The position numbers were made by a program, and so were the translations under genes. A stretch of DNA of 64,000 bases from Paenibacillus albidus (GTDB lineage: Bacteria > Bacillota > Bacilli > Paenibacillales > Paenibacillaceae): positions 1 through 64,000 of the forward strand of contig NZ_BMKR01000020.1 in assembly GCF_014644435.1 (NCBI RefSeq), read 5' to 3'. The notes below the pieces were generated by a model. The model ran no database searches. It saw only the letters and a list, made by a program, of their open reading frames with translations, and was not told the DNA's origin. This document shows, one piece after another, positions 13,262-46,202 of the stretch. Numbering within the stretch: the stretch's first letter is position 1; every line of letters starts with the position of its first letter.

Positions 13262-13450
13262 TGTTCTAATGTATATAGTACCTCAGAATGGTTAAAACGA
13301 GGCCCAAACATCCATCATGATGTATTTTGTACATTCAAAGGATAGCCATAAGGCACTTTTCGGCTAATGCTGCGGTTCCTGCTGCACCAAATACACTAAA
13401 ATCCTAAAACGAGCCTTCTTTTGCCCATCCTGATGTATAAAGTGCACTCT
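13262..13450. repeat. Degenerate 51-bp-spaced palindrome array (family B, copy 1)
   Basis: Four related 16-20 bp imperfect palindromes of the type TGATGTATTTTGTACATT begin at 13267, 13318, 13380 and 13431, with intervals of 51, 62 and 51 bp. The core is two arms close to TGATGTA and TACAT(C/T)A around an A/T loop. The array fills most of the non-coding region 13220-13597 between the chemoreceptor and the MerR gene. The same family recurs at 34970-35152. Confidence 0.7.
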
Positions 13451-13597
13451 AGCGATCTCCGCCCTAGGCTTATAGCGTGTTGAACCCTGCCGCAGCTTCC
13501 TGGGGACTAACATTGTAACTGAATTTAAACGCTCATTGGGGATTTCGGTTGACTGTCCCCTTGGGGAGGGGTCCACAATGAAGCTGAGGTGATGGCA

Positions 13598-16096: not shown

Positions 16097-16388
16097 CCCA
16101 AATCCGCGCCGGGCGCCCCACGAGAGGCAAAAATGCCTCTCTTTCGGCCCAAATCCGCGCCGGTCACCCCACGAGAGGCAAAAATGCCTCTCTTTCGGCC
16201 CAAAGCCGCGCTGGGCGCCCCACGAGAGGCAAAAATGCCTCTCTTTCGGCCCAAAGCCGCGCTGGGCGCCCCACGAGAGGCAAAAATGCCTCTCTTTCGG
16301 CCTAAAGCCGCGCCGGGCGCCCCATGAGAGGCAAAAATGCCTCTCTTTCCGCCCAAAGCTGCGCCGGGCGGTCCATGAGAGGCATTTT
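16097..16388. repeat. 51-bp tandem repeat array, family A, copy 1
   Basis: Five full 51-bp units begin at 16121, 16172, 16223, 16274 and 16325, with a partial unit before and a truncated core at 16376. Each unit starts with the perfect palindrome GAGAGGCAAAAATGCCTCTC (8-bp arms, AAAA loop) followed by about 31 bp of GC-rich linker (TTTCGGCCCAAAGCCGCGCT...). Because 51 is a multiple of three and the unit lacks stops, several frames stay open through the array; these are not taken as genes. It lies between the convergent chrA and DUF2252 genes. Confidence 0.92.
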
Positions 16389-43947: not shown

Positions 43948-43992
43948 CATCAGGACAAGGGTAAACATGATAAAGATGTGGAGGCTGCATTC

Positions 43993-44808
43993 ATGCAAAT
44001 TTCAGTGTTTTACAGCCATGTTCTCGCAGCAAGCGGGCAGAGGGGATTAACGGTGGCGGAGGTGCTCAAGCGAATCAAAGGGTTCGGCATTGATGCGGTA
44101 GAGCTCGATCTGGCCGAGGTCAAGCCGGGACGCGGGGAACTGAGGGAGCAGCTGGCGCAAGCTGGGCTGGCTGTGGCTTCCATGTACGCCTTTTTTGATT
44201 ACGGGAATGACCCGGATGTAGAGTCCGGCCTGAGATTTATTGATGCTGCTGAATTTTTCGGTGCACCAAAAGTGCTGGCCATCCCCGGTTTTATCGATGA
44301 ATCGGCCAGCCCGGGAACCCGGGATCGGGCCCTTCTGAGGATGGCAGCGGCTTTGCAGGAGATGTGCAGCTATGCGGAACAAAAGAACATCGTGGTTACA
44401 ATGGAGGACTTCGACGATGTCCGGGCCCCGTTCGCTACTGCGGATCAATTGTTGTGGTTCCTGGACCGGGTTCCGCAGCTGGGCTGCACCTTTGATACGG
44501 GGAACTTTATTTACAGCGCTGAAGATGAGCTGGAGGCCTATGCGAAGCTGGAGGTGAGAATCGTCCATGTACATTGTAAAGACCATGCGCTGGATGAACG
44601 GAATGGCGGAAAGCCCAAAATCACCCTTAACGGCACAGCTCTCTATCCGTCCCCGGTCGGGTCTGGCATCATCGCCATTGAAGAAATTCTGAAGCGTCTG
44701 AAAGCGTACGGTTATGTGGATACGCTGGCCATCGAGCATTTTGATGCGCTGGACCAGCTTGCCTATATGGAGCAATCTGCAGCATGGCTCCGTGCCCGAT
44801 TTAGCTAA
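43993..44808 (+). CDS. Sugar phosphate isomerase/epimerase family TIM barrel
   Basis: A 271-residue xylose-isomerase-like TIM barrel (AP endonuclease 2 superfamily). Metal-binding positions are seen in TMEDFDD (E near 136), CTFDTGNFIY (D near 166), VRIVHVHCKDH (H near 192-195) and LAIEHFDALD (E near 250). Members act on sugars, inositols or hydroxypyruvate; the exact substrate is unknown. GGAGG lies 8 bases before ATG 43993. The gene starts 45 bases after EcsC and its stop codon is also the first part of the repeat array at 44807. Confidence 0.87.
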   Translation: MQISVFYSHVLAASGQRGLTVAEVLKRIKGFGIDAVELDLAEVKPGRGELREQLAQAGLAVASMYAFFDYGNDPDVESGLRFIDAAEFFGAPKVLAIPGFIDESASPGTRDRALLRMAAALQEMCSYAEQKNIVVTMEDFDDVRAPFATADQLLWFLDRVPQLGCTFDTGNFIYSAEDELEAYAKLEVRIVHVHCKDHALDERNGGKPKITLNGTALYPSPVGSGIIAIEEILKRLKAYGYVDTLAIEHFDALDQLAYMEQSAAWLRARFS

Positions 44809-45193
44809 CGGGCCTGTGGCGCGAAACGAGAGGCAAAACTGCCTTTGGTTTGAGCGAAACGGGCCTGTGGCCCAGAATGAGAGGCAAAAATGCCTTTGGT
44901 TTGAGAGAAACTGGCCTGTGGCGCGGAACGAAAGGCAAAAATGCCTTTGGTTTGAGCGAAACGGGCCTGTGGCGCGGAATGAGAGGCAAAAATGCCTTTG
45001 GTTTGAGCGAAACGGGCCTGCGGCGCGGAATGAGAGGCAAAAATGCCTTTGGTTTGAGCGAAACGGGCCTGTGGCGCGGAATGAGAGGCAAAACTGCCTT
45101 TGGTTTGAGCGAAACGGGCCTGTGGCCCAGAATGAGAGGCAAAAATGCCTTTGGTTTGAAAGAAACGGGCCTGTGGCACGAAACGAGAGGCAG
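44807..45193. repeat. 51-bp tandem repeat array, family A, copy 2
   Basis: Cores GAGAGGCAAAAATGCCT (or close variants) begin at 44828, 44879, 44930, 44981, 45032, 45083, 45134 and 45185, each exactly 51 bp apart: seven full units plus partial ends. The linker (TTGGTTTGAGCGAAACGGGC CTGTGGCGCGGAAT in two pieces) differs from the array at 16097, but core and period are the same. The array starts within the stop codon of the isomerase gene and fills most of the 572-base gap to 45380. All frames are open because 51 is divisible by three; no gene is called. Between 45194 and 45380 I see no feature. Confidence 0.93.
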
Positions 45194-45380: not shown

Positions 45381-46202
45381 ATGAATATTATTGATGCGTT
45401 GGTTGCAGCTGCCCCTTATTTTAAATTAATTCATGCACAGGATATTATGATTGGCATCACGGACCGGGAAATTTTTCATTATTATGCACCGAGCAAAAAT
45501 ATTGATCTGGCCCTGGAAAAAGGGAGCCCTGTCTCCAGTGAAGATCCAACACTGACGAATGCGCTGCAGGGGCGGGCGAGTGTCAACCGTATCCCGGCAG
45601 AAGTCTATGGGCATACCGTTATTTCTTCCGGGGTGCCGCTGTATGGGCCGGATGAGACGGTGATTGGTGTATTGGCCATTGCCTATACGCTGGAGAATGA
45701 GGCGCAAATGGAGCGGCTTACGGATGAGATCCAGGCGATTAGCGGGCGTCTGGTCGATATGGTTCAGAACGTTGCCGCTCAATCTCAGCAGTTGTCCGCG
45801 ACCTCTACGCAGATTCTGGACAATACACGCAAGGCGGTAGCCGATTCCCGGGAGGTCAATAAGGTTGCCGGCTTCATTCGCGAGATTTCCGAGCAGACGA
45901 ATCTGCTGGGCTTGAACGCTGCTATAGAGGCTGCCCGGGTAGGAGAGCTGGGGGCAGGTTTTGGAGTCGTAGCTACGGAGGTGCGCAAGCTGTCCGTACA
46001 TACGAAGGATGCCACGCAGAATATTGAACAATCCCTCAGCGGTGTCCAGCAGTCCATCAAGCAAATGGAGCAGGAGCTGGAGGCTGTGGCCGCTGCGTCC
46101 AATACGCAGGCTGAACTTGTCACTGAATTCGGTGAGGTAATCGAGCGGCTGAACAACACAAGCAATGAGATGACTGCTTTTATCGAATCGATCATGCAAT
46201 AA
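45381..46202 (+). CDS. Soluble methyl-accepting chemotaxis-type signalling protein
   Basis: A 273-residue cytoplasmic chemoreceptor-like protein without membrane helices or HAMP. Residues 1-105 form a PAS/Cache-like sensor ([40 protein letters not shown]), and residues 120-273 a short MCP signalling coiled coil with the tip [20 protein letters not shown]. The short coiled coil would make a small cytoplasmic array member or a dedicated signalling partner. The ligand is unknown. GGGAG lies about 11 bases before the ATG. Confidence 0.9.

Follow-up and report, generated by a model that had tools for sequence, protein, structure and literature searches.

The tandem repeats described here belong to a family of dozens of related 51-bp hairpin repeat arrays that are intergenic, apparently non-coding and present in many Paenibacillus genomes. 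In the complete genomes that were checked their orientation follows the replication fork almost without exception. As far as can be told, the family is real, widespread, strikingly oriented and REP-like, and we lean towards reading it as a REP-like, replication-coupled hairpin satellite that is kept without a RAYT transposase.

Two arrays of a dispersed family

Within the window (the whole stretch of DNA that was analysed, 64,000 nucleotides), TRF reports two tandem repeats of period 51, array 2 with 7.6 copies and its sister, array 1 (Table 1). A first-pass annotation had already read from the letters the period common to both, a distance of about 28.7 kb between them and a start of array 2 within the stop codon of the isomerase gene. 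All three were borne out: the first cores lie 28,706 bp apart, and the periodic match of array 2 starts inside the TAA (44806–44808) of an isomerase-like gene. The annotation also counted eight cores at 51-bp intervals, each with the 17-bp core of array 1. The spacing is indeed exact, but only seven cores are complete, the last in the row being a terminal half core, GAGAGGCA, with which array 1 terminates too. Four of the seven match the 17-mer exactly and three carry one change. The core is a palindrome, GGCA-NNNN-TGCC, extended by arms. Allowing up to three mismatches, the 17-mer has 13 matches in the window against 0.34 expected, a number that no shuffle gets to, and 12 of the 13 are inside the two arrays. 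Array 1 is located between two convergent genes, one for a chromate transporter and one for a DUF2252 protein. Elsewhere in the window, a 217-bp segment between called genes (13262–13478) is 94% identical to L053:1739-1955 of the same genome; that copy is close to an array, and the segment is a separate dispersed repeat.

Table 1. Positions in the window of the two arrays, the cores of array 2 and its neighbouring genes
Feature	Position	Strand	Basis
Array 2, 51-bp tandem repeat; seven full cores and a half core in exact 51-bp steps (44828–45192)	44807..45192	+	TRF, sequence, core search
Core 1, one change	44828..44844	+	core search
Core 2, exact	44879..44895	+	core search
Core 3, one change	44930..44946	+	core search
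Core 4, exact	44981..44997	+	core search
Core 5, exact	45032..45048	+	core search
Core 6, one change	45083..45099	+	core search
Core 7, exact	45134..45150	+	core search
Terminal half core of array 2	45185..45192	+	sequence
Array 1, sister; five exact cores (16122–16342) and a terminal half core (16377–16384)	16097..16384	+	
5' gene, xylose-isomerase-like TIM barrel (PF01261), co-directional, outside the element	43978..44808	+	
3' gene, methyl-accepting chemotaxis signalling domain (PF00015), outside the element	45381..46202	+	

The view of two arrays needs widening, since they are members of a family found throughout the genome. In G000, the genome from which the window comes (7.67 Mb, 120 contigs), the core occurs 226 times at up to two mismatches, against a single occurrence of a reversed control pattern, and about 44 arrays of this family are carried. 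Arrays or single cores are found within a few hundred bases of contig ends (the end of C2 and the starts of C9, C26 and C70), suggesting that arrays break the assembly. The stretches that flanks of G000 loci share are short (35–217 bp), several of them being degenerate array edges or contig ends, so that no larger mobile element is seen at these loci.

Fetched stretches of four genomes yielded 92 array entries (45 from G000, 40 from G021, six from G031 and one from G022), locus L040 accounting for two of the 45, one per strand. A further 31 entries come from named genomes, which are partly the same as the numbered ones: G031 and PastM-3, G022 and UBA10396, and G064 and P. camerounensis are the same genomes and hence not independent. 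The named carriers are Paenibacillus sp. DMB5, P. camerounensis, P. typhae, sp. VTT E-133291, sp. PastM-3 and isolate UBA10396. The modal spacing is 51 in 115 of the 123 entries, several of the searches behind them having required 51-bp spacing, so that other periods may be missed. Across 100 genomes of the genus, G000 included, at least one pair of the first core type at 51 bp is present in 32; such pairs of a second core type, GGTANAAATCCC, are present in 17, seven of which are without the first type. One or both types are thus carried by 39 genomes, some with a single pair only, and 61 have neither at this spacing. A family-wide sample gave matches in 24 of 295 genomes, six of them outside the genus, where only G293 has many core pairs (21 at 51 bp) and some of the other five have linkers that look unrelated. 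With one mismatch allowed, the 17-mer matches in 10 of 60 genomes, G000 among them, and in 0 of 23 outside the genus. In another genus of the family, three GGCAAAAGTGCC cores follow one another at 51 bp in G313:C6:167377-167490, and their linker differs from all the others.

Other kinds of element were considered and set aside. A coding repeat was conceivable, 51 bp being 17 codons and some frames being open in most consensuses, but among the pooled 918 within-array variants synonymous changes are not in excess, whichever of the six frames is taken (z −1.8 to 1.4); taken separately, G000 reaches z 2.0 in one of the six, and G021 exceeds 0.4 in none. CRISPR arrays do not fit because the linkers are near-copies, units being on average 0.81–1.00 identical to their array consensus, nor do MITEs, since the arrays begin and finish in many phases with no common end. 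For array 2, the sole array searched, no match indicated phage or plasmid carriage, and one viral-contig match was discarded as it looks like an unrelated coding-type repeat. By eye, transposase genes are found inside or beside some arrays, IS256-like at L070 and IS3/IS150-like at L075 and L088; L116 matches the latter two at 80% DNA identity.

Constraint on the core and descent of the linkers

Scoring arrays with three or more usable units, we count 51 departures from the array consensus among 3864 core positions (0.013) and 1230 among 14973 linker positions (0.082), i.e. the core changes some six times more slowly, with a detection bias that is limited but not nil, as unit finding allowed two mismatches in ten core letters. 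The first-pass annotation had named equal divergence of core and linker as what would argue against selection on the palindrome, and the constraint on the core passes that test. Corresponding rates are 0.050 for the loop and 0.054 for the flank of the core. Between arrays of G000 core identity is 1.00 and linker identity 0.44, the former somewhat inflated because the units were found by their cores.

The core is a stem-loop, and between species its stem has undergone compensatory changes. The alignment comprises 33 consensus stems of 28 letters from 17 genomes, namely 11 chosen of the 77 in G000 and G021 and, for 15 other genomes, every one of the 22 arrays that were read, and 81.5% of its stem cells are paired. 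Changes on both sides of a pair affect 36 cells, compared to a mean of 13.2 in shuffles (none of 500 as high) and to 3–13 cells when the partner is slid, relatedness of the sequences inflating such counts; the number of stem pairs with a both-side change is unremarkable (6 against 4.6). The strongest pair adjoins GGCA and is A-T in 17 stems, C-G in seven, G-C in seven, G-T in one and unpaired in one (n = 33), and in G109 the core itself reads GGTA-TACC. Within G021 alone the covariation is weak. At its two most variable stem pairs, arrays with G-T and with A-C mismatches number 16 and 16, and 11 and 14, respectively, and at the variable pair of G000 eight and five; such similar counts lend little support to selection on one folded strand. 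The loop of the unit is conserved, polar and A-rich, GG-(CANAANTG or TANAAATC)-CC, and the second core type has an asymmetric inner 8 nt that is unlike that of the first. A second hairpin within the linker (columns i+j=54) is not claimed: pair 22/32 exceeds expectation in all three sets, and apart from this single pair the signal is weak.

The first-pass annotation took the linkers of the two window arrays to be unrelated, which they are not. They agree at 15 of 31 inner positions (shuffle mean 8.0; 15 reached by 5 of 2000 shuffles), and the arrays in general sort into linker families. The linker of array 1 matches the reverse complement of a large G000 linker family (0.89 to L045), with the A-rich loop on the usual strand. 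Against a cross-species profile built from 53 arrays of G021, G031, P. camerounensis and P. typhae (consensus TTTGATTCCGCCGAAAGCGGGCAAATGGGCGAAATGAAA), the array 2 linker scores 26.4 bits forward and 9.4 reversed, the array 1 linker only 1.2 forward and −3.8 reversed, and the big family of array 1 in G000 mostly low either way. Given the linker families and the agreement within the window, descent from a shared ancestor, with later divergence and homogenisation within arrays, is enough to account for the linkers. Selection on core and spacing, which had been deduced from linkers thought to be unrelated, loses that premise but keeps the constraint on the core and the modal spacing of 51 in its favour.

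The annotation's other proposal, separate expansion from a common seed, is supported by orthologous loci of two species, where linkers are related and unit numbers differ. All seven G031 loci that were fetched match a G021 array or single-core locus in their flanks, which are 83–89% identical over nearly all of the aligned length (L126 matched on one side only). By the array criterion used here, arrays are present in both genomes at five of the seven, with linker identities of 0.74–0.91, and unit numbers at orthologous loci differ, for instance about ten against two, or one against two.

Orientation relative to replication

The G021 contig begins at dnaA (by eye), and the sign of its GC skew switches between 3.37 and 3.85 Mb. 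The A-rich loop is on the leading strand in 39 of the 40 G021 arrays fetched among the matches listed. A full scan of 5.675–6.98 Mb for pairs at 51 bp added seven arrays, five leading and two lagging, giving 44 of 47 that point with the fork, a count that takes in part of the two- and three-core arrays from 2.4 to 5.675 Mb. Near-complete fork orientation is also seen in the other complete genomes checked. All 44 pairs with NAAG loops in G063 split by arm, forward at 0.53–3.30 Mb and reverse at 5.04–7.83 Mb. Four-core matches in G096 are forward at or below 3.52 Mb (71 of 71) and reverse above 4.59 Mb (29 listed of 45). The second core type, among the matches listed, divides without exception in G083 (14/14), G093 (31/31) and G096 (7/7). 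The contigs of these four genomes start at a dnaA-like frame (by eye); the terminus was measured in G021. By local GC skew, a noisier measure, the arrays look leading in 35 of 43 cases in G000 (L040 omitted), 36 of 40 in G021, 10 of 12 in DMB5 and 10 of 11 in P. camerounensis.

Neighbouring genes were taken from crude longest-ORF calls, in which the 5' neighbour of array 2 was taken as a spurious overlapping frame. On these calls, all 11 G021 arrays whose 5' neighbour reads in the opposite direction still point with the fork, which fits replication better than transcription, and 17 of the 18 between convergent genes do likewise.

The loop is not the sole polar part of the unit. Linkers score higher forward than reversed in 36 of 36 leave-one-out tests in G021 and, less cleanly, in 30 of 40 arrays of G000 and 17 of 22 arrays from 15 other genomes. 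Hairpin stability was also considered as the cause of the polarity. For 38 of 40 G000 and 31 of 37 G021 arrays, the array strand is predicted to form the stabler core hairpin in DNA, a consistent difference; its mean is only about 0.4–0.5 kcal/mol, however, so stability alone hardly explains the polarity.

In three G021 arrays the loop is on the lagging strand; the linker runs with the fork in two of them (L077 and the array at 6605004) and is undecided in the third (at 6212887). The G021 array at 5683887 has a leading loop and a lagging linker, and in DMB5 the linker of L137 is reversed relative to the loop, with negative skew on the loop strand. The G021 cases hint that loops return to the leading strand where the linker has been inverted (Fisher p 0.07, G021 alone). 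One G021 array, at about 6.213 Mb, is followed at its end by some 20 consecutive C (L205:18389-18409). Mixed loops occur in G000: L040 has four TAAA and three TTTA loops in units otherwise alike, and L060 has one TTTA loop among thirteen, suggesting that single hairpin loops inverted on their own. The linker of L040 matches, at 0.83, the reverse complement of that of L041, 13 kb away, and the plus strand of contig C4 around L040 has positive GC skew in all five stretches measured (0.050–0.113). Overall, 676 of 698 array loops are A-rich on the array strand, 18 neutral and four T-rich; since arrays were oriented by their A-rich majority, this count measures consistency within arrays.

Possible origins and known systems

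If the arrays are a replication-coupled hairpin satellite, the hairpin would fold in single-stranded DNA at the replication fork, and slippage, template switching or a hairpin-recognising factor would then duplicate or delete whole units. Owing to the asymmetry between the fork's two arms, units could spread or survive mainly in one orientation. What we infer from these patterns is that folding of the single strand is the step that matters; the same holds for the machinery at work and for any gain to the host.

REPs are the best-studied bacterial palindromic repeats and are tied to RAYT transposases. The present family resembles REP, BIME and REPIN elements in being composed of short, high-copy extragenic palindromes (226 cores in G000) that are partly tandem. 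It differs from them in that its units are direct rather than alternating, that the 33 consensus stems have no GTAG or CGTC tag by eye and that arrays also occur in genomes without a Y1 transposase match. Among the 18 array-rich genomes (17 or more core pairs), six have no match to the Y1 transposase domain PF01797, namely G063, G096 and G111, which are single contigs, and the drafts G064, G099 and G036; the other 12 do have such matches. We therefore reject a RAYT-dependent REP. The nearest precedent found for the polarity, on a small scale, is in P. fluorescens SBW25, for which PMC3116915 describes some tandem REP arrays as forward around 2 Mb and reverse around 4 Mb.

AIMS/KOPS sequences, in the pertinent passage of PMC5993296, have a leading-strand polarity on both arms. 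The arrays share this bias but are clustered at 51 bp whereas those sequences are scattered octamers, and along the right arm of G021 the arrays do not become denser towards the terminus. The 147 forward pairs of that genome comprise 100 up to 2.4 Mb, 14 on the left arm and at most 33 from 2.4 Mb to the terminus. Tandem repeats of about 40–100 bp also make up sopC centromere arrays, whose units contain an inverted repeat, and MIRU minisatellites; sopC is one plasmid locus and MIRU belongs to a different lineage. No earlier description of these repeats was found in the open-access literature that was searched.

A more far-reaching account, which we regard as possible and hold to only tentatively, is a transposase-independent system in which the polar-loop hairpin, recognised on one fork arm by a putative factor, amplifies itself into 51-bp arrays, spreads and stays oriented with the fork. 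If true, this would be a replication-templated selfish bacterial satellite with a loop re-inverted unit by unit, as L040 suggests.

Alternatively, the arrays may be binding platforms for a chromosomal DNA-binding protein involved in segregation, nucleoid organisation or polar fork control, the core being its operator and the 51-bp period reflecting protein packing. We consider this unlikely. The constraint on the core, a period near five helical turns and the presence of arrays over both replichores would all agree with such a role, but the compensatory stem changes are not those of a fixed half-site, and the two core types have different inner 8 nt, asymmetric in the second. Moreover, the 61 genus genomes without either type at 51 bp, and unit numbers down to one or two at some orthologous loci, are hard to reconcile with it.

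Still less probable are neutral minisatellites, in which slippage or unequal crossing-over acts on old repeats and core conservation is an artefact of detection. The ragged edges with their many start and end phases, visible multi-unit repeated blocks and, at the five orthologous pairs, linker identities near or below those of the flanks are what one would expect from such a process. The roughly six-fold lower rate of the core persists despite the mismatches that were allowed, however, and neither the compensatory stem changes nor a near-complete polarity in several species, with two core types at one period, would follow from it.

The least probable reading, structured RNA in the form of tandem 3' UTR hairpins that stabilise or terminate transcripts, draws on a co-directional 5' neighbour in 32 of 45 G000 and 29 of 40 G021 entries (crude ORF calls), 19 and 18 of which, respectively, lie between convergent genes, but is countered by array direction following replication against the 5' neighbour in G021, by the similar G-T and A-C mismatch counts in its arrays, by Rfam, which has no match above gathering score in the window and otherwise only two weak ones (E 0.31 and 0.38), and by RNA fold predictions, which favour the array strand in just 62 of 105 arrays.

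Read as a replication-coupled hairpin satellite, the arrays represent a large palindromic family that has expanded in many species, some of them without a detectable Y1 transposase, and offer a testable case for the fork-driven birth and upkeep of tandem repeats. They are in addition a natural mark of replichore direction, and strain typing and genome assembly in Paenibacillus may face dozens of similar, variable arrays.
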